Below, in pieces: positions 5,339 to 64,000 of a DNA stretch of 64,000 bases (its first letter is position 1; each line of letters begins with the position of its first letter). The translations under genes were made by a program, and so were the position numbers. The DNA comes from Tetraselmis striata (taxonomy: Eukaryota > Chlorophyta > Chlorodendrophyceae > Chlorodendrales > Chlorodendraceae). The DNA lies in assembly GCA_006384855.1 (NCBI GenBank), contig VCJN01000653.1, positions 41,840-105,839 on the forward strand. The letters run 5' to 3'. The notes under the pieces were generated by a model. That model was not told the origin of the DNA. It did not search any database and saw nothing but the letters and a program-made list of their open reading frames with translations.

Positions 5339-5573
5339 GCAACTGGCGTAAGACGCCGCAGTGGCCGGCGCCCACGCAGCTGATAGGAGCTCCAGGGCTG
5401 GGACGCCAAGGGTGTATGTCAGACCCTAGAACCCGTGTCATGTACGGGCGCATCGAATCAGCCCATGGTGTCGGACAGCTCGACGCGGTACTTCACCGCT
5501 GCAGTTCGTACTGGTGCCGCACGTACAACCGGTAGTTGGTGGCCGTTGCCGGGAAACATGGATAGCGTAGCAC

Positions 5574-6501
5574 TTACGGCCCCTCGGCGCAGGTAGACCC
5601 ATGCCGCAAGGAAACGCGGAATACAGTCATGGGCCAGTGAGGCATGCCGATCATACCTCGCCCGTCCTGCCGTCCCGGCCGGAACAATCCGGTGCACGGC
5701 ACCACCGTGAGCTCCTCCACTGCCATCTCGGTGAGTGCATGGTGCCACGCCTTGTCCTCCCATCGCGGGGCGACGACGGTCGCCACTGCGCCACTCTGCG
5801 CAGCTTCTGCACGAGGTCGTGTAGCATGGGCCAGGGTGCGTTGCACCAGTTGTGCACAAGATGAGCCGGGTGGCCTGCCGGGAGAGCCGGTTCAGCTTGT
5901 CTGCCGGTGAGTAGAACATGCCGGACGCTGAGTCGATGTCCACCCCCAGGTGCCTGCCGATTTGGCAAGGCTCCCAAAAGCCCTTTGTGGGGTTCCATTG
6001 CAGCCTCGAGGCGTCGAGGAGGCTGGCGAGCCGTTGACGGAGGTGGAGCGCCTGCTCCATCGATGGGGAGAAGAGGAGGAAGTCGTCCACGTAAGGTAGG
6101 ATGCACGCTTCCTTCCACATGGTCCGCCGGAGGCAACGCTTGCTCCGTGTGGGCTGCCTAGACGATGAGGGGGGCTCGGGCTCGGGTTTCCGCAGGTAGG
6201 TGATGAATACTTGGGTGAGCGTGACGAAGTAATAGGGCGAGAGGCTCCAGCTCATTGGCAGACCCGCAAGCATGTAGAGCTGACCTCGGACGTCCACGGT
6301 GAAGTAGTCTCGGTCCGCCTCTGCGATGCCTAGAGCATAGAAGCCGTCTTGGAGGTCGAAGGAGAGCATGCAGTCTCCCTTTTTGGTGAGGTGGCGCACT
6401 CCCAGTAGGGTCTCCATCTTGAGCCGCTTGCGCACACAGTAAGAAAAAGATGCTGCTACTGAGTGCATTTTTCTAGTACTATATGCAGAAGTTGTAGTCA
6501 C
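5574..6501 (-). pseudogene. DIRS reverse transcriptase / RNase H, frameshifted
   Basis: The main frame runs from 6501. It holds RT motif A (MLSFDLQDGFYALGI), then MLAGLPMSWSLSPYYFV, then the catalytic box YVDDFLLF with both Asp, and LGVDIDSASGMFYSPADKL from the thumb region. At about 5850 coding continuity shifts to another frame (VVAPRWEDKAWHHALTEMA), which matches the end of the RNase H/connection part of DIRS polyproteins. Fingers motifs upstream of motif A are missing. No start codon can be trusted, because the N-terminus is deleted. Confidence 0.75.
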
Positions 6502-6638
6502 AAAATATACGAATGTAATACGATGTAATTACGAATTTTTGGTTGAACACTTGCAGTTAATCTTTTTGGGCAAGTAGGGGGTGATATACCCTAGCACCCT
6601 CTGTTTCCGCACGGTCGTCTGACGACGACTGTAGTTTT

Positions 6639-7264: not shown

Positions 7265-8335
7265 GTGCTCCGTCTCGATGCGCCGCGCCCGCCTGCACGG
7301 CGCGCTCTCCTGGCCATGTCGCCCGGTTTCTCCGTGAGCGTTTGTATGTCCAACCTCATGCCTGCCCCGCCGCCGCCATGCGCCGGCGGATCCTCCGACC
7401 AATGGCCCGCACTTGGCCAACCCTTTGGCCCCCTATCCCCTGCCTCCCGGGGACAAGTCAGCTCTGCAGCGGTCCAACACGCCGTGCAAATGCAACAAGC
7501 TGCCTCAGCCGAACTGAAGTCTCAGCTGCTCGCGCTGATGCGAGACATCGCGCACGATGCTGCCACGGCCGCCGCCCGCGCGGTTCTGCAGGCACATGAC
7601 CTGCCCCGGCTCTCTCTCCAGCACCAAACGGCGCAGCCGGAGCCCGCGCCTCCGCCGCCTGCCGCCCCCGTGCAGCCGGAGCCAGTGCCTCTGCCGCGTG
7701 CCGCCCCCGTGCAGCCGGAGCCCGTGCCTCCGCCGCCTGCCGCCCCCGCGCAGCCGGAGCCCGTGCCTCCGCCGCCGCCGCCGCCCGCGCAGCCGGAGCC
7801 CGTACTTGTCGCCCCCACCTCAGCGCCCGCCGCTATCCGGCACGCCGCTATCCGCGCAGCCAGAGCCCGTGCCTCTGCCGCCTGCCGCCCCCGTGCAGCC
7901 GGAGCCCGTGCCTCCGCCGCCTGCCGCCCCCGCGCAGCCGGAGCTCGTGCCTCCGCCGCCTGCCGCCCCCGCGCATCCGGAGCCCGTATCTGCCGCCACC
8001 ACCTCAGCACTTGCCGCTATCCAGCACCCAGCCATCCCTTCAGTCGCCGCCATCTCGCCAGCGCCAGCGCCACCGACAAGGCCCCGTTCTCCCGAGAGGA
8101 CTATGAACCGTATCGGTGCTGGTTCCTTGGGCTCTGTCAACTTCGTCACGATGTGCACCGGACTGGACCTCGCCTTCGCTGTCAGCGTGCTCAGAAGGTT
8201 TCAGTCTGCCCCGCAGAACACCCTGCCACCTCATGCGTGCTCTGCCATCTCGAAGGCACCCCTGGCATGGGCATCACCTACGGGGCCACTGCACCGGGGG
8301 GGGCTCGCCTCGTAGTCTACTCAGACTCCGACTGA
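7265..8335 (+). CDS. Proline-rich Gag-like protein of the LTR element
   Basis: Single 356-residue ORF filling the internal region. Residues of about 80-120 look helical (AVQHAVQMQQAASAELKSQL, then LLALMRDIAHDAATAAARAV), as in Gag-like coiled segments. The next 100 residues are tandem copies of PPPAAPVQPEPV-type units encoded by a 39-45-bp GC-rich repeat (about 7637-7990). The frame changes character at about residue 185, from PEP repeats to Ala/Arg-rich, while a second open frame (7557-8315) keeps the PEPV pattern there. A repeat-unit frameshift is therefore likely, and the original protein probably switched frame. Function is inferred only from position between LTRs. Confidence 0.5.
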   Translation: MLRLDAPRPPARRALLAMSPGFSVSVCMSNLMPAPPPPCAGGSSDQWPALGQPFGPLSPASRGQVSSAAVQHAVQMQQAASAELKSQLLALMRDIAHDAATAAARAVLQAHDLPRLSLQHQTAQPEPAPPPPAAPVQPEPVPLPRAAPVQPEPVPPPPAAPAQPEPVPPPPPPPAQPEPVLVAPTSAPAAIRHAAIRAARARASAACRPRAAGARASAACRPRAAGARASAACRPRASGARICRHHLSTCRYPAPSHPFSRRHLASASATDKAPFSREDYEPYRCWFLGLCQLRHDVHRTGPRLRCQRAQKVSVCPAEHPATSCVLCHLEGTPGMGITYGATAPGGARLVVYSDSD

Positions 8336-8503
8336 GCAACTGACACCAGCAACCGGCGCTCTCAGTCGGGTGCTATCAGCATGCTCAATGGTGCCGCCAT
8401 TGGATGGGCTCATCAAAGCCCTGCCAGAACCTACTCACACCCTGCTGCTTAGACAAGCATCGGCACTAGTCAACTGTATGACCGGCCTATGCTTGAGAGG
8501 GGC

Positions 8504-8701
8504 TGTTATAGTACATTAATTAGTACTAGCGCAGCGACAGCAGTATCCTGGGCGCCCGCCAGGTGCGCGCGCCGCTACATGGCGGCGCGGGCGCTGCGGG
8601 CGCCACACACTTCCTTTAACCTCACCGCATCCTCCTGCCCCTCCCACTCGGCTGCCCCTCGTCAGGGGCCTACGCCCGTGCCCTGCACCCGGGCTATAAG
8701 A
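8504..8701 (+). repeat. 3' LTR
   Basis: Near-identical copy of 7028-7221, followed directly by CCCTC, the target duplication. The shared CTATAAG could serve as a TATA-like element near the LTR end. Confidence 0.85.
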
Positions 8702-9109
8702 CCCTCAGATTCCCGCCGCCGCCTGCGTGCTGGCGCTGCTAACGGTACAGGCCAAAAAAAAAAAAAAGGTACAGGGTACCTGTACCAGCCCATCACATCA
8801 GTTCTAGGGAACAGCCTTTTTTGTAATTCACACCAGCCCATCTTCTGATTGTTAGAAGTACAGCAGGTAAATCCTTACTGGTACTTTGCTTTGCGGTCGA
8901 TTTGCTACTGGCCTTTTGTAATTCATACTAGCAAGTACCTGGCTGGCTGCCTGCGCGCTACTGCTCACCTACTTGTTCCGCTGTCCGGGTAGATCTGGCT
9001 CGTCCTTATGCGTGCCGAGAAGCAGCCCGCTGACAACTGCCAAAGCCCCGACGCGATCGGCGCATCCTGAAAAACCAAGCCCCCTCTGCTTGACATCTGC
9101 GACACTGCC
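8702..9109. other. Upstream region of the cyclophilin gene
   Basis: Contains an A run (about 8755-8768) bracketed by GGTACAGG-type motifs like those at 3993-4020, and a duplicated phrase (CACACCAGCCCATC at 8829, echoing 8785). The promoter of the cyclophilin gene should lie here. No gene seen. Confidence 0.4.
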
Positions 9110-10389
9110 ATGCTGTCTGCGCAGCCCACCTCCGCGCTTGCGCGGCGCGGAACCCTTGCCGGCGCGGCCTTCGTTGCCGTCGTGCTCCTGGCCGCCTTCT
9201 CGCTCGGGAGCGCCAAGCCCGACTTGACCTACACCAGCAAGGTACGGCCAGCCCAAATTTCGACCCAGGCGCTGGCCTCTCCTGAATATGGAACGCATCC
9301 CAGATCGAGCACGTTCTGCGCTGCTGCTGGTCTCCCACCAAACTCTGCATCACGCTCGCGTACCAAAGCCCGTACCGTGCTTGCCCCGACCTGTTTTTTG
9401 TCACGCGGGCCAGCGCGGGCAGTGCCTTTCTGCGCTCTGCACACATTTTTCCAGTGCTAAGCACTTCTTAAGCTTCATGTACCTCACATAGGCACACCAA
9501 GCGCATTGCAGAGGTTAGGCCAGGCGGCCCACTTATCCTTCAGCTGCTGGCTGCCTGAGGCGCTTGCGAACTGTGTTGCGGCGCAGGTCTTTTTTGACAT
9601 TGAGATCGATGGGTCACCAGCAGGTGCGATTTTGCTATCGCTGCCCTCATTCCAGCCTTGGATGCCCGAGCTTAAACCCACTTGGCAGGGGGTAAACTGC
9701 TTCTAAGCCTGGATGATTTTGCGCTGAAACTGCAGGCCGTGTCGTGATGGGCCTGTACGGAAACGTGGTGCCAAAGACTGTGGAGAACTTCCGCGCGCTG
9801 TGCACTGGTGAGAAGGGCGTGGGCAAGAGCGGCAAGGAGCTGACCTACAAGGGGTCCAAGTTCCATCGCGTCATCCCCAAGTTTATGCTTCAGGGCGGCG
9901 ACTTCACCCATGGCACTGGCACCGGCGGCGAGTCCATCTACGGCATGAAGTTCAAGGTACGGCGTGGGAGATGGTGGTTTTCAAAGCCGCGCCGGTATCA
10001 CCCATGACAACACTGACAGCATGCTATGCCCGGTGCAGGATGAGAACTTTGAGCTCAAGCATGAGGGACCCGGCTACCTCAGCATGGCCAACGCTGGTCC
10101 GGACACCAACGGATCCCAGTTCTTCATCACCACTGTGAAGACCGAGTGGCTCAACGGCCGCCATGTTGTGTTTGGCAGGGGTATGCAGCCTTTACTTGCA
10201 GCACGCTTTCATCCGCTCACGGTTCGACTTGCTCTCAGGTGCATGATGCGAGGCATGGAACTGACACTTCTGCCCCCCGGTCTCACAGTTATCGAGGGCA
10301 TGGATGTTGTGTACGCTGTTGAGGCCGTCGGCTCGGGCAGTGGCAAGACCTCCAAGACCGTGACCATCGCTGACAGCGGTGAGCTGTGA
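9110..10389 (+). CDS. Peptidyl-prolyl cis-trans isomerase, cyclophilin type, with signal peptide
   Basis: Five exons: 9110-9241, 9587-9623, 9736-9956, 10039-10180 and 10289-10389, giving 210 residues. All junctions are in frame. The N-terminus carries a hydrophobic signal ([20 protein letters not shown]) followed by a complete cyclophilin domain. Active-site residues of the family are all visible: Arg and Phe/Gln in [14 protein letters not shown], Gln/Phe in NGSQFFITT, and Trp/Leu/His in [11 protein letters not shown]. It should catalyse proline isomerisation in the ER/secretory pathway, like cyclophilin B. The C-terminus ends ADSGEL, not a canonical KDEL, so retention is uncertain. The start was chosen because it gives a clean signal peptide. 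No polyadenylation motif is seen close by. Confidence 0.93.
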
Positions 10390-12009: not shown

Positions 12010-13620
12010 CGCCTATCAAAGGTCAGACCGCGATGGCCGCCAGCTCACTCCTCCTGCTGCTTGGCCCCGACACCCTGAGAGCACTCCGGCTCCTGTCTCT
12101 TGGTCCCCAAGTCGCTGCCGGCACTCCTGGTAATCATTTGCCGCCATATCTCGGTGGCGATGGGCTCCGCCCTCTCGGAAAACATCACGTCGGACAGCGC
12201 CGTCTCCTTATATCTAATCCAAGGCATGATGTACCGACCAATAACTTTGAGATGACACACACAACAAATTGTTTCGGGAACACATACTTCAACTCGAATA
12301 TTGGGCAGCTGCCGGCCTCCGAACAATCATTCAAAACGCCAAAGCACACATAATATGGGTAATCGGCAACGAGCAGGCCGGCACAACTGCGGGCGAAGTG
12401 ACCAACGGCGGGACGACCCTACCTCACAACATGGCTTCTACATAGTAGGCGCACTTTCGGAGGCAGCCGATGACGTGTGGTTGACCTACTGCCAAGGGGC
12501 GCCAACAAGTTGCCGCACCCCCACAACCTGAAAAACGCCTTCGAAAACATGCTAATACCGCATGTGTGGGCTCCAACGCCACCGACGAAATCCTTCACTC
12601 CCAGGACCTCATCGACATGGCGCTAGCCACAATACATGAGCACTAGCCACATGAGCGCTGCCGGACCTCATCATGCCCTCAGACATCACCACCTCATAGA
12701 GAATACACATACCGGAATTCATATGGAGAGCACACTCCAATAAAAAAGACGCAAAGGCTAGCCATGATCCTTCAGCACCTTCGGGAAGTGCGGAGAAAAT
12801 CTCAACACGGCCACATGCCTGGCAACTTCCCGTCGATGGCTCGATGTCCGACCTAACGACGGATAGGCACAAGATCACACTTAAAGTACTCATCGGAGAA
12901 CCGGAAACCCTAAACGGCGGACGATGGAACAGTATGTCGGCATACGTCGCCAACCAACTTGTGGCCAACTTCTCCTCAAGGACAGAGACACTCTCATCTC
13001 CGACCTCATAGACCGAGTCCGACACACGCTCTCCCTCGTCAAGAACACCGACCTTGGCAGATACCAAGGGGAAAACCGAAGTGAGTCCCCAAACCGGTGA
13101 AGCGGTACCAATGCTACTAAGTAACCTCGACCATGCTAGCCCCTCATCTGCACCCAAAACCATGCAAGCCTGACATCATAGTACTTATCGTCGGATATGA
13201 ATGGGACCCGGCCACCGAAACCATAGCAATACAAATAATACAGATAATCGAATTCCAATACTGTAATTCAAAACCTCCACCATCATGCCGCCATACACAC
13301 CCTCATCCACAGAAAATATCAACCTCTAGTGGAGGCCCTCAAAACGCAAGCATGGACATTTCCGATCGGAGATGTTCCCGTCACCCTTTGCCAAAGCGGC
13401 TCCATACACAAATTCACTCTAGAAACCATCCAACGCCCCACGGTCCTCCGCCCCAGGAAACACCCCTGGACCAACCCCCTCCGCCCCCCGTGCCGCCGCG
13501 ATCCGCTTTGCAAAAAATGAAATAAAGGACAATCGATAGGATGGCTGTACACCCCCCCGCATATCGAAGCAGTCCCTCAAACCCACCAAGACTGAATCCA
13601 TTACCTCTCACAACCCAACC
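12010..13620 (+). pseudogene. Decayed retroelement polyprotein fragments
   Basis: Base composition is more even than in the genes nearby, and short coding-like pieces change frame often: LEYWAAAGLRTIIQNAKAHI (about 12280-12340), DTLISDLIDRVRHTLSLVKN (about 12985-13045) and RKYQPLVEALKTQAWTFPIG followed by DVPVTLCQSGSIHKFTLE (about 13310-13425). The last resembles the tail of reverse-transcriptase ORFs of green-algal retroelements, where a KY-PL-V-AL--AGW pattern recurs; this is from memory of the families, not a search. Many stops are present. Confidence 0.35.
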
Positions 13621-26694: not shown

Positions 26695-29600
26695 ATTTTT
26701 ATTTTTTTTTTTATTACATAAGGGCTTTCACAAAAGCGCACTACAAACAGAACTAACTTCAACTGTGAAAGGTTGCCAACAAAAGAGAGACATAAGCCTG
26801 AAACCAAGGTCGAGCAGGAGGACAGGGAGCCAAGAACCAAGAAGGAGCCAAGGGAACCACGAAGTCACTTAGCTGCCAGGGACCAAAGGGACCCCCGCCC
26901 CGGGGTAGGCTATCAGCCGCGGCGAGGACGCTTGCAGCCAATGACCCGGGTCATAGCAACACATGCCGACGAGCGACGCGACGCAGGCGCAGGAGTACCA
27001 TCACGTGCCGCACGCGCGGACGCGACCCCGCCAAGAACGTTGTCCGCATGTGCCATGTTGATGAGCAAGGAGAAACGGCGGCGCCACGCAGACAAGAGGT
27101 GGCCGATTTTTTTGCCAGTGTGTGTGTGGCTAGCTTTCGCGAGCTCCACCAAGAAAGCCTCGGCGTGCGGGGCCAGCGAGCCAAACTCGGAAACGGCGAA
27201 AGGAACAAAGCGAAGCATGCCGGCGGCGTTTCGGACACCCTCGTCATACTTCTGGATTTTGTGGCGCTCTGCAGCCCTCAAAGCAGTCGTTGGATCCGAG
27301 CTTGACACGCCGAGGATGGGGGCAATGGTGGTATCGATAGCAACCGTGTTTCCGCGGATACCGCCATACCCGAAAAGCCCAACATCGGCCGGCCGGCCGT
27401 CGGTGCCCTTCGGGAGAGAAACAAGCACCGACGGGTCCGTGAGGATCTGGACACCCACGCCCAGCGCGGACTTCACGTCGTGGCAAATGTCGGAAAGGCC
27501 ATGTGCGGCCCACTCGTGTGCGGCGTGATTGGAGACACCCCCAGAGCAACGTGCCACGTGATCAGCGTATGCGACCGCCCAAGTTGAAGGAGTGAACTCC
27601 ACGCCAGCGTCCTCAAAACGGGCCAGCATACCTTGTACCGAGAAGGAGCAAGAAGCACAAGGGCATGGCTCGCCAAGGGAGAGGACAGGAGCCGCCGGAA
27701 GGCCAAATGGGCGGCAAGCGGCAACACGGAACATGGAATCGTAGTACTCAGGGGAACGCTCACGGACTTCACCAAGGCGACCCTCGCTTGGAGGATCAGT
27801 CACCAGGAACGCTGTCGCAGCGCGTAAGAGGCGGCCTCGGAAGCGGTTGCTGTCAGGGCCACTTGTAGGCATACGCGCAACGAGCTTTGCGAAACGGACC
27901 GTGTGAATGCGGTGGCTCAGGGTTTCCTGTACTTTCCGCATGGAGTGCAAGGGGAAGTCCGAGTAATGCGGGATAGCTCGGAGGTCGGCTGCCGAGCGCA
28001 TTGCAGACGCCGGCTCGGCCCCGGCGGCCGAGCAGCCGGCACGGGCAACGTGGGAGCGCTTGGAGGGGAGCAGCTTTAGGGCAGAGGCCAACGGCCCCGC
28101 TAGATCTTCGAGTACCGCGTCTCCACACTCCTCAACGACACGGGTATGGGCGGCGCGAAGCTCGACAGCCCACATCGGTGCCGACGCGTTGGCGCCGGCA
28201 TCGAGCTCCAACGTTGGGGTGGCCATAGCCTGGTGGATCGAGGACGCCCCAACAAGGTAGAGGCTATGAGGGCTGGATACGCCGGACGGGTCGGAAAAGA
28301 ACGCCCCGGCGTCGCACAGGGTGGCGTGTTGAGCACGGAGGAAAGTCACAGCTTGGCCAACCACGAGGGCGGCAGCGCCGATGTGGGAGGCATCTGCTAT
28401 GACCACATTATCGCCGATGCCGAGGCCCCCAAATTGGACCGGGAGGGACAGCTGCGTGCGCATGGAGGGCGTATCCAAGAGGTCGGGGCTAACACCCCAT
28501 ATGCCGGCAAGCGTTGAAAATGCGGCGGCGTCTGCATCTTCGAGGAAAGACGTAATAGTGTCGCCATACCCCTCGGATCGACCCAAGCCCCGAGGCGTGG
28601 AGCGGAGATGGTGGCCAAAACGACGGCCGCAAACTTGCAGCAAGCGAGTAGCAGTGTGGGAGTGGAAGTGGTCTGCCAAACCGACAAGGCGGGAGCCGAA
28701 TTGGTGAAATCTTTCGACCGTTTTGTCCAGCAGTTCCCGGGCGAAAGTGGCCGAGCCCACAGGGGCCCCAAGCACCTTGATTCCGGACGAGGAGACTGCA
28801 ACACCATGCAACAAATGCCCAAATGGAAGGGCGCCGAACGGAGACGAAGAGCCAAGCTGACAATACGCCTGTCGTTTGCGAATGGTGACGCTCAACCCAA
28901 CGGCGGCAAAAGCGGAGGGGGCCACCCACGTAGCAAGCGCAAGTCCATCACCAGTGCCGACCAGGTTGACGTCGTCAGAGAAAGCCGCCAACACTGAGTG
29001 ACTGGGGGCAGCCGCGCCGATGCGAGCGTACACTCGGGCAGCGACGGCGGCGAACAGGATGAGGCCGAGGACGCAACCCTGGCGGGCCCCTCGACGGCTT
29101 GGAATCCGGAGAGAGGGACCGGGTTGGGAGCCGTCGAAAACGTACAGATTGGACTCTTGACCATAAAGCATGATCGCCGAACGCAATAGAGGCTGCCAAA
29201 CAGGGTCCTCGAGCAGTGTGCGGAACATTTCGGAGCGGTAGAAGGAATTGAACGCGTTTTCGGCGTCAAGCTGCACCAAGACGAGGGATGGGTCCGAGTC
29301 TAGGAGAGATCGCACAAGGAATTGAACTAGTTCCACGCCACCCTTAACGCCAAAACCGAACTGGCCGCGGGCGGCAAGCCATTGGGCGATGGGCTCGCCA
29401 TGAGCGCGCAAGAGGACGCGCATAGCGAACCGGACAAGCACGCTGCCGATGCCAATGGGTCGAACGGACCCCTTCATGTCTCCGGCACTTAGTTCCAACG
29501 CATTGCGCTCCGCCGGCGTGAGCTTATCTAGGGGAACCAAGGTAGCGGAGGAAAGGAAATGGGCAACGCCAGCAGGGACCTCCGCATTCGCGATGGCCTC

Positions 29601-30113
29601 GGCTATGCCACGGAGGTGGGAGCGCGAGCAGAGGGCACGGAGAGCCTCAAAGCGGATGCCATCGAGGAATGGGGCAGAACCATTGGGGCTGCTGGACAAC
29701 ACCTCGCAAACGTCCACCGAAGCCTCAGGGAAAGTGAGGCGGTCCAACGAGAACGGGTCCGGGAGCGCGCAAGGAACAGGGTCCGGGGTCTGGGGATGCA
29801 AGCGAAGGAGCTCTTCGTGAAGCCGCGGGCCAGTGGGCGCGAGCGGGACTGAGTGAAGGGCGGCAGCTGCGCGGCTGTACTCGCCCACCGCGGCCAAAGC
29901 CGAGGCCCGAGCAGCTTGGCGTTTGCTTACCGGCGGTGGGTCCTCACAATTGGCCGACGCCGGAGCCGCGTAATCATGAGGAGTAGCCCGAACAGATGCA
30001 TGCGTACGCGCGAGGGCGAACAACGCGTCTAGGTCACCACGCTCCCAATGGGACAGACGGTTGTCACGGTAGTCTGCCACCGGGTCGGGGGGTATGTATA
30101 TTTTTATATACAT
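26695..30113 (-). mobile_element. Non-LTR retrotransposon (LINE family A), 5'-truncated
   Basis: The element reads on the minus strand. Its 3' end carries TATGTAATAAAAA (on that strand), combining TGTAA with a short A-rich tail at about 26700-26720. Its coding part is the long ORF described separately. AT-rich flanks are similar on both sides (TAAAAATATATACAG at the 3' side, TAAAAATATACAT at the 5' side). They look like a target duplication with a 2-bp difference. No 5' UTR or N-terminal nucleic-acid-binding domain is present, so the insertion is truncated. Confidence 0.8.
26913..30113 (-). CDS. LINE reverse transcriptase with restriction-like endonuclease domain
   Basis: Uninterrupted 1066-residue ORF. 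Residues of about 190-420 form the RT: VRPIGIGSVLVRFAMRVLLR, LVQLDAENAFNSFYRSEMF (motif A), RRGARQGCVLGLILFAAV (motif B) and LAAFSDDVNLVGTG (motif C). Motif C has Ser-Asp-Asp in place of the usual Ala-Asp-Asp; both metal-binding Asp are kept. A Cys/His cluster (CPCASC ... HVARC) precedes a C-terminal PD-(D/E)xK-like core: RPADVGLFG, TVAIDTTIAP and RHKIQKYDE. This is the layout of R2-type and related LINEs that nick DNA with a restriction-like enzyme. The first nine residues (MYIKIYIPP) come from the AT-rich flanking DNA, so the annotated start is not the ancestral one. The intact frame suggests a young copy. Confidence 0.88.
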   Translation of the reverse strand: MYIKIYIPPDPVADYRDNRLSHWERGDLDALFALARTHASVRATPHDYAAPASANCEDPPPVSKRQAARASALAAVGEYSRAAAALHSVPLAPTGPRLHEELLRLHPQTPDPVPCALPDPFSLDRLTFPEASVDVCEVLSSSPNGSAPFLDGIRFEALRALCSRSHLRGIAEAIANAEVPAGVAHFLSSATLVPLDKLTPAERNALELSAGDMKGSVRPIGIGSVLVRFAMRVLLRAHGEPIAQWLAARGQFGFGVKGGVELVQFLVRSLLDSDPSLVLVQLDAENAFNSFYRSEMFRTLLEDPVWQPLLRSAIMLYGQESNLYVFDGSQPGPSLRIPSRRGARQGCVLGLILFAAVAARVYARIGAAAPSHSVLAAFSDDVNLVGTGDGLALATWVAPSAFAAVGLSVTIRKRQAYCQLGSSSPFGALPFGHLLHGVAVSSSGIKVLGAPVGSATFARELLDKTVERFHQFGSRLVGLADHFHSHTATRLLQVCGRRFGHHLRSTPRGLGRSEGYGDTITSFLEDADAAAFSTLAGIWGVSPDLLDTPSMRTQLSLPVQFGGLGIGDNVVIADASHIGAAALVVGQAVTFLRAQHATLCDAGAFFSDPSGVSSPHSLYLVGASSIHQAMATPTLELDAGANASAPMWAVELRAAHTRVVEECGDAVLEDLAGPLASALKLLPSKRSHVARAGCSAAGAEPASAMRSAADLRAIPHYSDFPLHSMRKVQETLSHRIHTVRFAKLVARMPTSGPDSNRFRGRLLRAATAFLVTDPPSEGRLGEVRERSPEYYDSMFRVAACRPFGLPAAPVLSLGEPCPCASCSFSVQGMLARFEDAGVEFTPSTWAVAYADHVARCSGGVSNHAAHEWAAHGLSDICHDVKSALGVGVQILTDPSVLVSLPKGTDGRPADVGLFGYGGIRGNTVAIDTTIAPILGVSSSDPTTALRAAERHKIQKYDEGVRNAAGMLRFVPFAVSEFGSLAPHAEAFLVELAKASHTHTGKKIGHLLSAWRRRFSLLINMAHADNVLGGVASARAARDGTPAPASRRSSACVAMTRVIGCKRPRRG

Positions 30114-31215
30114 ATATACTAAGCGGCGCTTCGCGCCGGGGATCTGTGGAGGTGCCCCTACCTCTTGGGTTGAGCGTGGTGCGGGATGCGGGCCGCTTTT
30201 AGCCGGCTTGCAGTGTTGATCTTGTAATAATACTGTTGTTTCCGGGTAATAATGCTTTTAGCGTTAGATTTGTCAGTAATTTATTTTTCAAAAGAGACGT
30301 ATTATTTTGTAAAACAGATTAAATCTGCGCAAGCCGCGTAACAGCGGGCCGCTGACCACTGGTGTGCATTACAAAAAGGCCGGTACCCAACCCAAAAAAA
30401 AAAAAAAAAACAGCACTGCAAGATCAGCAATACAGTACAAGCCGCCTACAGGCGGCCCGCATCCCGCACGAGGCCGCGCAGGTCGGGCCGGTCGTCAGGT
30501 CTACGGGGCGGGCACGCCGCGAATCGCCACGCCCGCCGCCTGTACGAGCACCGGACGCCGGACGCCGCCGTTCGACCGTCGCCCGTCCGTCGACGGACGC
30601 CGGGCCCCGGGTCGGCGGACTGCCCCCGCACCGCGGCGACCCCTTTTTACAGCACCATACTTGGACTACCGTGTGTAGGTAAGGAATAGTCGCTGAATAT
30701 AGTCTCGAATGCTGATTCAGCAATAAAAACGCGCTGCGGTACCGCGTTATTTTGGCGTTTTAGACGAATACATGACGTGCCTGAGCTAGAATACACGCGC
30801 ATCCATTCAGAATCTTGCCGTCTTCGGAGGTGTGCCTAGAAATCAAACGAGCACAAATCGAACATATGACGGTTCATACGCGAAGACGCAGCACAGGAGG
30901 ACGGACGGACGGAGGACGGAGGACGGACGCCTAAAAATCCGTGATAAAACCGTATTGTTACCGGTATCGATTCTCACGTATTCCAGGCGATTTCGGACGC
31001 GGCTCTCCTTTTCCTCCGCTCAACCCAAGAGGTAGGGGAATAGGGAACCCGGTTCACAACAGTACATTATATGTTCTTCAAAAATCAGTACTTTTGACTG
31101 ATGTTCCCGGCGCACACGCCGCGCGTAGCTCGCGCGCGCTGCCGCCGCGCGACGGTCGGCTCGGTGGAGACCTCGCGATCATGCCGGTGTCCTGCTACTA
31201 CCCTTTGACATAGCT
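30114..31215. other. Spacer with foldback and poly-A tract; no gene
   Basis: Contains the inverted repeat described below, a run of 17 A at about 30394-30410, and short GGACGGA repeats near 30898-30925. No coding region supported. Confidence 0.4.
30180..30470. repeat. Foldback (imperfect inverted repeat)
   Basis: TGCGGGATGCGGGCCGC at 30180-30196 is matched by its reverse complement at about 30452-30468. The arms can be extended imperfectly to about 60 bp. The loop holds the poly-A tract. Possibly a small MITE-like insertion. Confidence 0.5.
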
Positions 31216-31721: not shown

Positions 31722-33626
31722 TTACATGTCCAGTACACGGTTGGTGTTGATGGTGGGAGGGTTGGCGGGTCCAATCTTGGCCCATCCATCCGCCTGCAGG
31801 TGGGCTGCAACATGCCTGGCGAAGCATGGGCGGGTGCAGAGGGATGAGCACACAGGGGCGCCGCAGTCAGAGCAAATGCTACGGACCAGGTTGCGGCGGC
31901 ATTCCACACACTGCCTACACTTGGCGCGTTCTTTGCCATCCTTGAACTTGCTGGGGGTGTTCTCAGGGTTGGGAGCGGAGTACATCGTAGCTGTGCGCTT
32001 GGTGCCTTTTGTGCGCCAGCCCTCATCAAACGCGCGGGGCACTCCAGAGGGTCCGTCACCTGTCTCAGTATCAAAGGGACTAGGAGCACTGCAATGAGAG
32101 CTCTTTGAGCTGCGGGTAGTTGCACGGCTGCGGGGGACAGGCGAGGTGCTGTGCAGGCCAGATGCAGAGCCCATCATCTCAGCCCTCCCCTCCGCAACCA
32201 GCGCGTCCGCCATGGCGCACTTCCACTCATGACGCGTCATGTCCTTGTTGTTGGTGAAAGAAGTGTAGCACAGGTAGGCGTTGGATTCGGCCACTGCAAC
32301 GGTGTACAGCCAGAACCAAAGCACAGCACTACGGGGGCCCCAGCCAGTGGCAACAGAGTGGGGGCCCACACTCAGCTTGTTGTTGATGTCCACCGCGTTG
32401 AAGTGCTGCCGATAGGTGGCGTGGCTCTCCCGTTGCTCCACCTCGTAGCGGTACTTGTGTACGTGGCCGTCCTTGTACTTGGACTTCAGTCGCTCCACAG
32501 GCGGTGTGATAGCATCACTGCAGCATGTATGCACAAGGAGCATGGGTTGGGTATCCTGCCAGGCCGAGGCATAGACCATGCAGCGCTCACCAGGCTTGCC
32601 AGGAACATCATGCTCCCTTTGCAGTGACGCGAAGTTGATGCGCGCTCCTGCCACAGCACTAATGAGGCGTTGCTGATTCCTCTATCACCCAGTCCTGGCA
32701 TGTCTCGCTCTAATGACTGTCAGGCAGGTCCCCAGGGTCGCCCCAGAAGCGAAAGTAGGCGCGCCACTCGTTGAAGCGGCGCTGTGTCATCAGCGCAGCG
32801 AAGCCATAGCGGGTGGGCATCGCCTTGATGGAGGGCACTGCAGGGTTGTCCCACAGCTCCTCCAGCGACACCGTCGATGAAGCGTCATCGCGAGTAGAAC
32901 CGCCAGGAAGACCTTGAACTCCGCCAGGGAGAAGGGGACGACACTGCTCCCCCCCTTCTCGGTGTGGCGGCGCTGGTTCATGGCATCGACGGCGCGCGAC
33001 ATCGCCCTGAGGGGGAACCACTGCCAGAAGTGCCATGCCACGCCCGCCTGCGCCGCCTCACTGTGGTTGCGGCGGTAGTGGCCGGAACGTGGGGGGTACG
33101 CTCTGGCCTGCTCACGCTGACAGCGGTAGCAAGAGGCGGGTTCCCAGTCAGGCGGCGGAAGCTCGGTGGGGGTGGGGCGAAGGGTTGGTGCCGTGGGATA
33201 TTCGTCGGGTTCGGCGGAGTCACCAGCGGGCTCGGCATCGGCGTCCGCAAACGCATCCCGCAGCTGCTGGTTGGCCGCCTGCACCTCCTCCAAGTCAACG
33301 GTGGTCGGACCCACCCGCCTGTGCTCCGCGGGGGCCGCTGCTGGGGCGGGGGGGACGAGGGCGGCAGCCTTGAGGCTGACCTCACGCTCTATCTCAGGGT
33401 GATCTTTGGCGAAAGTGACGCGATGCCACGCGCCAGAGTGGCCACAGACGACGCCGCGCAGCGTGACACCCGCCACGGGCTCCCCTGGGTGGGCAGCAAC
33501 CCATACCTTCTTGGCGGCGTCGGTTATATCACCGAAACGGACAGTAATGGCCGTTCCGAGGGGCAGCCGCATGGTGGGCAGGTGGTGGTGGTGGCGGCGG
33601 CGGAGCCCGCGATCTGCTGGGCCCAT
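31722..33626 (-). pseudogene. piggyBac-like transposase, internally deleted
   Basis: The N-terminal part (33626 downwards) has a Gly/Pro-rich leader. It then has FSLAEFKVFLAVLLAMTL and, after a frame change at about 32880, MPTRYGFAALMTQRRFNEWR with YFRFWGDPGD. These resemble the N-terminal part of the piggyBac transposase domain. The C-terminal part (32654-31722) is open: KYRYEVEQRESHATYRQHF, NAVDINNKLSVGPHSVATGW and NAYLCYTSF, ending in a Cys-rich finger (CRQCVECRRNLVRSICSDCG). The central section with the catalytic Asp residues is missing; the junction lies near 32655-32710. An inactive relic or a non-autonomous derivative. Confidence 0.7.
32672..32692. repeat. 21-bp repeat at the piggyBac deletion junction
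   Basis: Identical to 31458-31478. It sits in the short stretch that joins the N- and C-terminal transposase parts. Confidence 0.75.
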
Positions 33627-59320: not shown

Positions 59321-60032
59321 GATTGATAATGATAAATTGTATGCGTACATGTTACAGTACAAGTTACAGAAGTACGGCAGGTAGTGATATGATCTAGGAA
59401 ATGATAATAATATAAGTGGTTATGTGGGTATAGTGCAGGGTTAGGTGTAGTCCTAACATGCTTGCACATGGGGCCGGGCCGCTGGTAGGTGCGTCCGCAG
59501 CCGCCGTCGCAACACCGGAACTGCCAGTCAGCGTTCCCGCCGGGCGTCGACGACTGCAACCGCGCCATCGCTGCGCCGCGCGCCCACCACCACCACCGCC
59601 CCCGCCGGAACCGCGACCCACACGGCAGACGCCCTAGCACAAGGCCATGGGGAGCCATAGGACGTCCCACGGTACTGGACCCCCACCGGCCACGCCACAG
59701 CCAGAAAGCCGGGGGTCGAAGGGGGGTCGTTGTCGTCCCCCGACTACGATTGCTACTACGAGCCCGCGGGGAATGAAAGCTCGTAGTGGTGAATACGATG
59801 TACTTATTGATTCATATATGTTAAGACCCATGTACAACAGTAATTTAACCTATTTTGCGCCGTGGAATTCACTTTGCACCGTAGGGTTTGTGTATACCCT
59901 AGTTCCCGGGTTTACTATCAGTACTTAAGACTCACTGGTGATGTAGCTTGGGTTTGTAGACCTTGGGTGCAGTGCAGCATTCATTAGCATGAAGGCCAGC
60001 CGCGACGCATATCCAATGTTGGTTTTGGAGCA

Positions 60033-60053
60033 TTTTGTCCAAAATGGGACAAG
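60033..60053. repeat. TTTTGTCC...GGGACAA palindrome (left)
   Basis: TTTTGTCC, a 5-bp spacer, then GGGACAAGA. The same palindrome type recurs at 60705-60727 and 60756-60777. Confidence 0.6.
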
Positions 60054-60128
60054 ATGAGGCAATGAAATCAATATTTAATATGATTATTACATCCAGCGGC
60101 TAGCTAGCCACAAGACGTTGCTAATAGT

Positions 60129-60985
60129 TTATTCGTTGAGCATCCCCAACTCAAGCAAGTCCTTCTTCGTGGCTGCGTTAAACTTGACGACTCCGCCGGG
60201 TTTGCGTTGCGCTGGGGTGGTTGACATAACGTGGACGCAGTTGTTTCGTGGCTGGCTGATTTGCCACCCAGTTTGCGCATATGTCTTCACGACTTGGACG
60301 CTTTCACCGTACCACTTCTTTCTGACCATGGTGCCGTTCTCGTTGAACACCTCTCGACTTCCCGACGCGTCGTGGATGGCCTTCGCGTACGATAGGGGGA
60401 CGGCTTCAACAAGCTTCAAAGGAAGCGTCAGGCACTTCTCCCAGCTTGTGTCAACTGGCTTCTTCCCTCCTTTTGTCTGCGCGTACAACCATAGGGGCAT
60501 GAGGGGTTTGCCCTTTGCATCGGCATGGAAGGGCTCGTATACGGCCACGGTCAACGTGTCTTCGGTAGTCTCGCGCGACTTCACAAGCCCGATGACGAAT
60601 CTCGACTCCCAATCACCAAGAGTTTCGGGACACTTGTCTTCCTCATGCACCTGACGATGGCCAAGACCGCGAGCTATGTTAGTCCCGAGCGAGACACCAC
60701 GCCATTTTAGTCCCAGTTGGGACAAAATAACAAGCAAGGTAGATGAACCAAATTGTTTTGTCCCGTAAAGGACAAAAATGACAAACAATGGGACTCAGAT
60801 CGGAGACGTCGATGACAACGAGGTTCGAGCCCTTTGCATCGCTGGGCGATGTGTTGTCATGAAGCCTCTCCTTGGCGCCGGCGTGAACTCCCCGGAAGGC
60901 GCTGTCATCTTGAAGCACTTGAGCACGAACCTCGGCTTCAACGCGAGCGGCTTCGGCATTGTTGAGGTCTGCGTTGGTAGCCATC
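60129..60985 (-). CDS. Unrecognised gene, moderate GC
   Basis: Two coding blocks on the minus strand. The upstream one starts at ATG 60985 (MATNADLNNAEAARVEAEVR, then AQVLQDDSAFRGVHAG) and ends somewhere before about 60790. The downstream one probably begins after an acceptor at 60651 (VHEEDKCPETLGDWESRFVI, then GLVKSRETTEDTLTVAVYEP) and ends at 60129 with KKDLLELGMLNE. The second block has alternating beta-like strands and Trp-rich phrases (SWEKCLTLPLKLVEAVPLSY, MVRKKWYGESVQVVKTYAQT), a little like BAH/chromo-type or transposon C-terminal domains, but I cannot name a family. GC is lower than in the host genes. Palindromes of the form TTTTGTCC/GGACAAAA flank the second block, so it may be part of a mobile element. 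Confidence 0.5.
60705..60727. repeat. TTTTAGTCCC...GGGACAAAA palindrome
   Basis: Imperfect palindrome centred on CAGTTG. It lies just upstream (in gene orientation) of the second coding block of the unrecognised gene. Confidence 0.6.
60756..60777. repeat. TTTTGTCC...GGACAAAA palindrome (right)
   Basis: TTTTGTCC, spacer CGTAAA, GGACAAAA. Confidence 0.6.
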
Positions 60986-61211
60986 GTTTGACGTGCCTCG
61001 GCGGGCGCGCGCGGTCTGCCCGTGCTCGCGCAAGAAGTCGTCAACTTCCTCTTTCCGTTGCGGCCAGAACCCGGAGAAAGCTGCATGTAGGTTTTGCATG
61101 TAGCCATCATACTATTAGACCGTTGCCTCGTTCGAACTCCGAGGGGCTAATGCATCCACCGGGTAAACCCGGGACACATACGGGTCTGGACGATATTGGA
61201 ATGCCCTGAAA

Positions 61212-61275: not shown

Positions 61276-61940
61276 CGGACAGACAACGAGGTAGTGTAGT
61301 ACTGTAGTGCGACTAGTAGTCCTCGTGCCTGTAGTTCTCGCGTAGTGTGGCAGCGACTAGTAGTCCCATATTATGGACTGGGGATTGCTACCCGCGTAAA
61401 AAATAAGAAAAATCATTAGTCGCTGTATGGGCTATCCGCAAAACCACCCAAAATGGCACTAGGAAACGCCCACCTGTGGTAAGAACTCTACAGAACAGTT
61501 GCGGGTTTACCGCTCCGGGTACTTCAGGGTTTAGTCGCTAGCAGTCGCGCAATACGAGCTATATTTTACATGCTGAGCAATCCTTTTAGTCGCGCCATTA
61601 ATAATAAATAGCCGGCTGTCGTGATATTACTGTCGTGATATGCTCGTCGCAATCCTTAGCGCTATCACACTAATCCTTGGCGGTAGCGCCTGGAACCCTT
61701 CTTCTACTTGCTGCACATGGGTACCTGAGTCGCTACTCGCTACTGCGACTCGCTACCAGAGGCTAATCGCTCTTGTGGTCGCTTTATTTTACCGCCTGGC
61801 AGTCGCGCCATTGTAGGAGCCGTATTTTACATAGCGAGCGATCCTTATTATACGCTGATTAGCACCATTAGTAGCTGATTCGTACGTGCAGTCGCGCGGG
61901 CGCGGGCGGCAGGTCGGGGAGCGCCCGCCTCTTGCGTGTG
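61276..61940. other. AT-richer spacer; no gene
   Basis: Repeated short phrases such as CGACTAGTAGTC (61308 and 61358), AGTCGCGC and TGTCGTGATAT (61618 and 61631) point to decayed repeats. Nothing coding. Confidence 0.4.
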
Positions 61941-61946
61941 TGTGTG

Positions 61947-62080
61947 TTAAGAAAAAGGGTGTTACGGAGACATTTTTGCCCGGGCCCTCTCGGCCCTGCC
62001 GCCGACGTCGGCCCGCGAGGTAAAATCGCGTTTTCCCTTATGTAGGCGATATTCCGCGGCTCGCCAAAATGTCTCCGTGG
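61947..62080. repeat. Hairpin with GGAGACATTTT arms
   Basis: GTTACGGAGACATTTTTG near 61960 is answered by CCAAAATGTCTCCGTGG near 62063. A direct copy of AAAAGGGTGTTACGGAGACA occurs again at about 62228. Small MITE-like unit likely. Confidence 0.65.
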
Positions 62081-62254
62081 ATTTCTCCGGTTTGCACGTC
62101 GACTGTACATTATCCCTCATGTTGGTACTCGCTGTGGTACCGCTCCGTACCGTGTCGGAGGATGTCGGCCCCAAAATGGGGCCGTGGGGCTGGCATCCTC
62201 CGATGGGGGTGGGGCGGAGCCATTACGAAAAGGGTGTTACGGAGACATTTTGGT

Positions 62255-62697
62255 CCGTCGGCACGGCGGGTTCCTCATCGGCGTCGGCACGGCGCATTCC
62301 TCATCGGCGTCGGCGCGTCCCCTGTCGGCACGGCGCGTCCCCTGTCGGCACGGTGCGTCCCCGGGCGGTGCGTCGGCGCGTTCCTCATCGGCGTCCCCGG
62401 GCGTTGCGTCGGCGCGTCCCCTGTCGGCACGGTGCGTCCCCCATCGGCACGGCGCGTCCCCTGTCGGCACGGCGGGTTCCTCATCGGCGTCGGCGCGTCC
62501 CCTGTGAGTCGGCACGGTGCGTCCCCTGTCGGTACGGCGCGTCCCCTGTCGGCACGGCGGGTTCCTCATCGGCGTCGGCGCGTCCCCCATCGGCACGGCG
62601 CGTCCCCTGTCGGCACGGCGGGTTCCTCATCGGCGTCGGCGCGTCCCCTGTCGGCACGGCGCGTCCCCCATCGGCACGGCGCGTCCCCTGTCGGGTG
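62255..62697. repeat. GC-rich minisatellite
   Basis: Irregular tandem array of CGGCACGGCGCGTCCCCTGT and CGGCACGGCGGGTTCCTCAT with CGGCGT units, about 440 bp. All frames on both strands stay open through it, which explains the long ORFs there. Confidence 0.9.
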
Positions 62698-62846
62698 ACG
62701 CCCCGGAACGACGTCTATGAGCCCGTATGACGCCCCGGAACGACGCATCGCCCAATGGCGGCGGCGAGTAGGGGTGGCACGGCGTTTCCGACACCGGCGC
62801 GAGCGTTGGTCACACCGGCGGGCAAAATGTATGCCCGAGGGAAGCA

Positions 62847-64000
62847 TCAAAGCAACACAAGCTCATCCAAGGTCGCCCTATTCCCGTCATGAGCAAGCAC
62901 GTACAATCGATAGTTTGAGTAAGAGCCAGGGCTCGTTACAGTACCTTCAAACACGTAACAATTGTCCGCACTTGTGTTGTTTTCCGAATCAAAATCAACT
63001 TGAAAGAGAGTACTTGTTGCTTTGTCCGCTGCGGTAATCGTTGTGTACGACATGTCGTTGAATGTAGCTAACAAGGACCAATTCGTACCATCGTTGCTAC
63101 CCTCGAAACGCGCAGAAGTGATTTTCAGACTATCCCACGCTTCTGTGCTCCAGACCCTAATATTACGCACCGTGGCAGCCGAGGGCAGTTGAATTGCTAA
63201 ATATTCAGGCCCAGGACTATTTACATTGGCCGACCACCCTCCTCTGTAAAACCCGTGTATACGACTGAAAGCGTAGTAACCCTGGTAATTTGAGTTCGCC
63301 TCGGATGATGTTGTTACGGTGTATCCTTGGTCGACGCTTGCCGTGAGGGCGGGAACGATCCGGAGAGGCTCGTAAAGAACCACCTCGACGATGCTAATGA
63401 TCGCGCTCGAGTTCGCGCTCAGCGGCATACAAAATATTGAATAATTGGTTGCCGATTGCGGGTTGGTAAAATATATATCGACGTAGTCGTTGCGTAGGCT
63501 AGCCGCACCGGGATTGGTTGCCCCCGCCCGGTAGTCGCTGGCCTGCAACGACTTGCTCGCGAGCACCGTACCATCCCGAGAGAAGGATATCAATCCGGGG
63601 AAGCTGTGCGGCAGGCCGTCCACAACCTTTGCGGCGGAATACAAACGAAATCCTACTATCCGCTTTGGCGAACTCAGCGTAAAATTGATCGTAACCGGAG
63701 GGGTGTTTGCCGGGCTCGCGAAAACATCTCCGATCCATCCGTATTGGCCGTCGAAGATATAGCTTGCGCTGAAATCCGGTGAAAACACGGGATTGCTGGA
63801 TGTTACGGTTGCAAGCGCGCCATCGATTGCGACTACGGGGTTGGTGTTATGGCTGCCGAGGCTGATAATCCCGGATGTGTTCCCGGCGGTATCAATGAGC
63901 TCGATCCACAGCCAATACTGCGTCCCCGGTTGGAGGCCCGTTACGGTGACCTCCCCGTTGTCGTAGTCGTAAATCACGTTGGGGGTGACGCTAGCCGTCG
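62847..64000 (-). CDS. Partial surface/fibre-like protein with FN3 and discoidin-like domains
   Basis: Open to the window edge, so the N-terminus is outside; the stop is at 62847. About 384 residues are visible. First comes the end of a fibronectin-III-like domain (VTVTGLQPGTQYWLWIELID, then TAGNTSG). Then come two discoidin/F5-8-type-C-like modules. The first has SASYIFDGQYGWIGDV and RIVGFRLYSAA. The second has QGYYAFSRIHGFYRGGW, LAIQLPSAATVRNIRVWST and RFEGSNDGTNWSLLATF. GC is near 50%, below the host genes, and no intron is visible. Such domain chains bind carbohydrate or cell surfaces, and similar wording occurs in fibre-like proteins of large algal DNA viruses; that link is from memory. 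A bacterial or algal cell-surface origin is also possible. It could be a recent insertion. Confidence 0.65.
   Translation of the reverse strand, partial: TASVTPNVIYDYDNGEVTVTGLQPGTQYWLWIELIDTAGNTSGIISLGSHNTNPVVAIDGALATVTSSNPVFSPDFSASYIFDGQYGWIGDVFASPANTPPVTINFTLSSPKRIVGFRLYSAAKVVDGLPHSFPGLISFSRDGTVLASKSLQASDYRAGATNPGAASLRNDYVDIYFTNPQSATNYSIFCMPLSANSSAIISIVEVVLYEPLRIVPALTASVDQGYTVTTSSEANSNYQGYYAFSRIHGFYRGGWSANVNSPGPEYLAIQLPSAATVRNIRVWSTEAWDSLKITSARFEGSNDGTNWSLLATFNDMSYTTITAADKATSTLFQVDFDSENNTSADNCYVFEGTVTSPGSYSNYRLYVLAHDGNRATLDELVLL

Follow-up and report, generated by a model that had tools for sequence, protein, structure and literature searches.

Positions 61940-64000 of the window (the whole 64,000-nt stretch of Tetraselmis striata DNA that we analysed) are very probably one end of an endogenous polinton-like virus (PLV) that has spread in the genome, a latent virus with recombining fibre tips; we put the probability of this reading at roughly 0.9. 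The ORF at the window's right edge is the terminal gene of this ~17.9 kb element, not a giant-virus gene, and its appearance is that of an attachment-fibre gene from a small polinton-like virus with many insertions in this genome. Elements of this kind are already known, and the exchange of fibre tips between copies is the new part.

The fibre gene and the edge of the element

The gene is an intronless ORF on the minus strand (62847-63998, 383 aa) which is open at the contig end. The last base of the window is also the last base of its contig, C510, whose assembly probably broke off within a repeated element, and the ~34 N-terminal codons that lie beyond it can be read on contig C1356, which has the full frame (12133-13383). 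Pfam places F5_F8_type_C in two stretches of the protein (E 4.4e-11), the best being residues 228-331 (63006-63317, minus strand), which is within the exchangeable tip discussed below; its fn3 match (E 0.023) is below the Pfam cut-off. The first-pass annotation had described an intronless, fibre-like protein with FN3 and discoidin-like repeats, and the ORF, its discoidin repeats and its fibre-like character all hold up, with FN3 left as a sub-threshold match. It had also noted a lower GC content, which is true of the gene (52.3%, against 60.1% in window 1-61939) but not of the element, the rest of which is host-like at ~62%, so low GC is a mark of the fibre gene only.

A structure predicted from the single sequence of the window's fibre fragment had a mean pLDDT of 36.9, and the fibre has weak PDB matches to fibronectin, to neuropilin and to a bacterial protein. 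These matches, and the fact that many cellular proteins contain FN3 and discoidin domains, could be counted towards a host gene family for cell-surface or matrix proteins that transposons had captured. However, the gene lacks introns, lies inside the terminal repeats and keeps a constant order with polymerase-ATPase elements on several contigs, so we give a host origin next to no credence.

The outer edge of the element, where host DNA ends, is at ~61940. To the left of it (1-61939), nothing matches the pieces of the element on contig C1647, and the matches of nine contigs (C1290, C1356, C138, C1455, C1647, C1993, C2110, C2337 and C776) all end at window 61934-61947. The terminus, (GC)GTGTGTG-TTAAGAAAAAGGG (61940-61959), is found beside unrelated flanks on other contigs, i.e., the DNA outside the edge differs from copy to copy.

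From this edge, a terminal repeat (61940-62845, 68.4% GC) runs up to the stop codon of the fibre gene, and an inverted copy of it lies at the far end of the element. Its outer 317 bases are 99% identical, inverted, to C1647:50345-50663, and the right end of the C1647 element matches window 62845-62257 inverted at 93% and the outer 64 bases at 100%. Inside the repeat, 62257-62694 is minisatellite-like, with many overlapping, shifted self-similar matches, and 62715-62845 (minus strand) corresponds to the final 131 nt of the C5-methyltransferase gene at the element's opposite end, 100% identical to nt 839-969 of that gene on C1647 (at the protein level, aa 270-322 at 83%, with one stop). The inverted repeat inside C1647 is ~0.77 kb, and the window end matches the far end of C1647 further than this because the window copy also carries those 131 nt. 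The repeat-dense zone had been proposed as the border of a viral insertion: a border is indeed there, at ~61940, but the repeats are the element's own terminal repeat.

The neighbouring host DNA has repeats of its own. Window 59865-61084, which holds a 219-aa ORF with no Pfam match, is 84.5% identical to C1647:25553-26801 and is near a PLV terminus in both places. Window 61630-61897, in the flank near the edge, has a 96.3% copy at C1356 26415-26683, which lies ~12 kb away from that contig's element; the flank must therefore be repetitive in its own right. Two reverse-transcriptase ORFs lie on the minus strand further left, at 26916-30257 (RVT_1 1.3e-6, just below the cut-off) and 5461-6528 (8.8e-12).

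A complete element with no integrase found among its main genes

Contig C510 stops at position 64000, and the window has just one gene of the element besides its terminal repeat, but C1356 is 99.9% identical to the window over 62834-64000 and 99.8% over 61940-62832, and it continues into viral-type genes rather than into spliced algal genes, which bears out the earlier suggestion that an endogenous viral element extends to the right. Inwards from the fibre gene, C1356 carries a SLATT protein (SLATT_4, E 1.8e-15), an FN3 protein, a 297-aa ORF, a capsid-like ORF (8302-9552), a 192-aa basic ORF and an A32-type packaging ATPase (Pox_A32 PF04665, E 1.7e-15). Past the ATPase, on the opposite strand, are a 284-aa ORF, a collagen ORF (E 2e-16) and a 366-aa ORF, and then a polymerase whose match to DNA_pol_B_2 (PF03175, E 2.3e-6, positions 3-220 of 468) is above the cut-off. 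The PF03175 profile is unspecific for protein-primed enzymes, and we infer from context that this polymerase is protein-primed (pPolB). The 192-aa ORF matches PHROG endonuclease VII (2.7e-4) over 36 residues, a match we distrust.

A capsid gene, packaging ATPase and polymerase had been suggested as the genes to look for to the right, and on C1356 and C1647 the last two are present. The capsid-like (412-aa) ORF has no convincing match in Pfam, PHROG, NCBIfam or PDB, and tblastn with its protein found nothing in phage records. The 297-aa, 284-aa and 366-aa ORFs likewise have no convincing family or PDB match, the best for the 284-aa ORF being DUF5901 (E 0.008, below the cut-off). We take the 412-aa ORF to be the capsid protein and the 284-aa ORF to be a minor capsid (penton-like) protein; both identities are presumed from gene order and size.

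A complete copy occupies C1647:32799-50663 (~17.9 kb), with the terminus at 32799 (plus) and 50663 (minus) and a C5-cytosine methyltransferase (PF00145, E 2.9e-45) at the far end. Its size and inverted terminal repeats are those of a PLV (about 14-40 kb). The first-pass annotation had instead raised the possibility of a giant virus (NCLDV), i.e., a fibre from a large algal DNA virus with the insertion continuing rightward. There are tip-related discoidin domains elsewhere in the genome that would suit it: long frames (836-929 aa) on C2385, C2605 and C613 have discoidin domains 46-51% identical to the tip (42% for a third on C2385). DDE_3 transposase frames are also numerous on C2385 (at least eight matches) and C2605 (at least six), and C2385 has a methyltransferase at 32% identity. 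These three contigs possibly contain giant-virus-type stretches. The complete copy, however, is a small polinton-like element, with pPolB, an A32-type ATPase and the fibre at one end, and its ~17.9 kb size and inverted-repeat ends rule out the giant-virus reading for the element in the window, making such an insertion most improbable here. A genome search with the NCLDV capsid profile (PF04451) gave no match, but neither did the controls, so this negative carries no weight.

A canonical Polinton/Maverick transposon would also have pPolB, a packaging ATPase and inverted terminal repeats, but it would bring an rve integrase and 5-6 bp target duplications. Among the 14 main genes (counting the 117-aa and 147-aa ORFs of C1647), Pfam finds no integrase, transposase or protease family, including no rve and no Ulp1-type cysteine protease. 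Genome-wide, none of the rve (PF00665) matches among the best 150 of 1289 candidates is inside the C1647 element, nor is any of the DDE_3 (PF13358) matches listed. Tyrosine recombinase (PF00589) has at least seven matches in the genome (best 150 of 1091 candidates), none of those listed being inside the C1647 element or on a contig with a listed capsid-like match, and there is none among the element's ORFs. Read by eye, the six contigs with both ends available show no direct repeats of at least 4 bp, though some of these end pairs may not be two ends of one element. We therefore consider a canonical Polinton very unlikely and keep to an integrase-less PLV. One rve match does lie between PLV ends, at C1230:40233, in a 1561-aa frame that we took for a retrotransposon from its length only.

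The PLV has a preference for TA, which is directly outside the terminus at 13 of 24 junctions, compared with a frequency of 3.7% in flanking DNA (P about 4e-13 if the junctions were independent; not all are, since three C1230 junctions are alike, giving 13/22, and two C1455 flanks are inverted copies). On C1647 and C1496, TA is on both sides. This TA could reflect a 2-bp duplication, or it could belong to the element as its outermost bases, which some copies would have lost. At C1455:112801-154129 the flanks of the element ends are mutually inverted, i.e., an inverted duplication or an assembly fold-back. At C776:56703 and 82694, the flanks on both sides contain degenerate TTTAGGG/TTTTAGGG repeats, which we take to be of the green telomere type and the insertion to be in telomere-like DNA.

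Copies are numerous. In the genome (224 Mb, 2903 contigs), the window-edge stretch has 44 matches (65-100% identical, window included), pPolB has 70, and the capsid-like protein has at least 102 (best 100 of 132 candidates), some being fragments of one gene; at least 44 of the last have no stop and span at least residues 8-415 of 417. The listed capsid-like matches fall mainly into identity classes of 95-100%, 66-75%, 58-62% and 36-41%, with a broken lineage at ~80% on C1190. In comparison with C1851, the fibre N-part has a dN/dS of 0.09, the tip 0.22 and a portion of the capsid-like gene 0.14; against the 40% lineage (C2696) the capsid-like gene has 0.37, all rough values because synonymous sites are near saturation. 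IMG/VR protein scans found no relatives, but there were no hits there to a degenerate pPolB motif pattern either, so these negatives say little.

Some copies are rearranged. Pieces of pPolB occur in tandem units on C206 (~6988 bp apart), C266 (6961 bp) and C335, apparently an amplified, defective derivative. Beside the full-length element, C1647:27009-32798 holds two head-to-tail short deletion derivatives (spacing 2895 bp), each running from the left end through 374 nt of tip B straight into the methyltransferase's last 213 nt and the right end, so the two element ends can be joined. On C776, a frame that we read by eye as a copia polyprotein lies within the collagen gene. Separately, C1257, C211 and C1788 have a 437-aa DDE_3 transposase frame in tandem units of ~2680 bp.

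PLV insertions in green algae are documented in PMC10675990 and PMC10120064 (for further work, see PMC7805220 and PMC11071308). As described in the former, PLV2 of Cymbomonas tetramitiformis and prasinophyte PLVs of 14.6-15.6 kb resemble our element: they encode pPolB, an A32 ATPase and capsid proteins (presumed in ours) but neither a recombinase nor a transposase; ours differs in its ~17.9 kb length, the C5-methyltransferase at one end and the FN3/discoidin fibres. Gezel/PgVV-type chlorophyte PLVs, again compared by the descriptions in both papers, also have many endogenous green-algal copies and in some cases pPolB, but they reportedly encode a tyrosine recombinase, rve or DDE enzyme, and we found no such gene in the element. 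Cryptophyte and other protist PLVs share its collagen, discoidin and SLATT genes, and those with a tyrosine recombinase, which we did not find in our element, mostly lack target duplications (PMC12220804). The PLV of the dinoflagellate Oxyrrhis marina is similar in its terminal inverted repeats (230-860 nt), collagen-like protein and lack of target duplication, but it has a tyrosine recombinase, a helicase-pPolB fusion and an N6-methyltransferase, whereas we found no recombinase and a C5-methyltransferase (PMC12721341).

Apparently exchanged tips on near-identical copies

C1647 and C1356 are 98.3-100% identical at the DNA level in nine gene segments (with 695 of 1239 bp compared for the capsid-like gene), but only 65.1% identical in the last 176 codons of the fibre. 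C1993 and C1356 are 98.3-99.7% identical in nine segments, and only 71 bp of their tips align. In 20-codon bins of the fibre gene, identity stays at 0.97-1.0 as far as codon 220 in C1647 and codon 240 in C1993, drops to 0.82-0.83 in bin 241-260 and is 0.40-0.72 in later bins. The break is therefore near codon 250, and the tip's other side ends at the terminal repeat. In the window, the exchangeable tip so delimited is of type A and covers approximately 62850-63353 (minus strand).

Within the window copy's lineage (95+% capsid identity), tip A is carried by the window, C1356 and C1290, tip B by C1647, C138, C2110 and C2337 (twice), and tip C by C1993 and C776, while C1303, C1435, C1455 and C38 have C-like tips that are 65-67% identical to C. 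The mixed tips may come from chimaeric contigs, an explanation weakened by the fact that A, B and C were each found on two or more contigs. Tip A is 59% identical to B and 55% to C in amino acids (pS 0.74, dN/dS 0.10-0.12), and all pairs of the three fall within 52-59% protein identity, pS 0.73-0.74 and dN/dS 0.10-0.16. By their sequences, the tips thus appear to be old, constrained variants.

Since no other part of the element diverges as fast as the tip, one could suppose that the tip has changed by rapid point mutation in place, not by exchange. However, its synonymous sites are near saturation when those of the neighbouring half of the same gene have a pS of 0.03 or less, its protein sequence is conserved, and related tips sit in distant lineages. 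These three observations rule out point mutation in place, which we regard as highly improbable.

The related tips were found by pairing each tip locus with its nearest capsid-like match. Genome searches gave 123 matches for tip A, 118 for tip C and 93 for the fibre N-part, and the pairing used 61 of the at least 102 capsid matches and 46 tip loci, each called A-like or C-like when the two scores differed by at least 3 points. Excluded from the pairing were fragments, loci lacking either tip score, fibres that carry two tips in tandem, and the window, whose contig has no capsid gene. All 46 loci paired within 13 kb. A-like and C-like tips numbered 6 and 5 in the 95+% capsid lineage, 3 and 15 in the 66-75% lineage, 0 and 4 in the 58-62% lineage, and 11 and 2 at 41% or less. 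Both kinds are therefore present in three of the four lineages, although mixing is not universal, as the 58-62% lineage has C-like tips only. Related tip types occur with capsid-like proteins that are just 38-41% identical; for example, C1860 combines a capsid-like protein 39% identical to that of the window's lineage with a tip 68% identical to tip C. With near-identical copies that differ in their tips and distant lineages that have related ones, tips seem to have been exchanged between lineages. We saw no report of tip exchange in PLVs in the open-licence PMC literature on fibres, receptors and discoidin, which is not proof of absence, and exchange between near-identical copies is not described in the available part of PMC12220804.

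How a tip might move, and what it means

Judged from its genes, the element would be a latent virus. Its pPolB would copy a linear genome from the repeated ends, the ATPase would pack this genome into the capsid, the methyltransferase would mark viral DNA, and the discoidin fibre would bind a sugar on the host surface. Fibres in general anchor by their N-terminal part and bind by their C-terminal part, and it is the C-terminal part that varies here. We infer virions and receptor binding on this basis. Recombination could move a tip if a crossover fell in the conserved N-part of the fibre gene and the exchanged stretch ended, on its far side, in the common terminal repeat; what the virus binds would then change. 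Exchange between ends would also agree with the methyltransferase sequence that lies beside the fibre gene in the window copy. Phage tail fibres and adenovirus fibres also have a conserved N-terminal and an exchangeable C-terminal part, so the PLV fibre may follow the same working plan, with no claim of common descent.

More tentatively, and at less than even odds, the PLV lineages in one genome might share a pool of receptor-binding tips, with the integrated copies serving as a tip archive. An integrase-less virus would enter at TA by borrowed machinery, and, as the tip immediately adjoins the terminal repeat, a single crossover in the conserved half of the gene would be enough to change binding.

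PLV copies are abundant in protist genomes, and it is often hard to say whether they act as infectious viruses or as transposons. Something that meets cell surfaces would be expected to have just such a constrained attachment domain, swapped between copies that are otherwise near-identical. With its sharply defined terminus and its preference for TA, this integrase-less PLV is also a useful addition and a good case for the question of how such viruses enter chromosomes. The swapped domain makes the choice between virus and transposon directly testable, as the natural tips can be expressed and their binding assayed.
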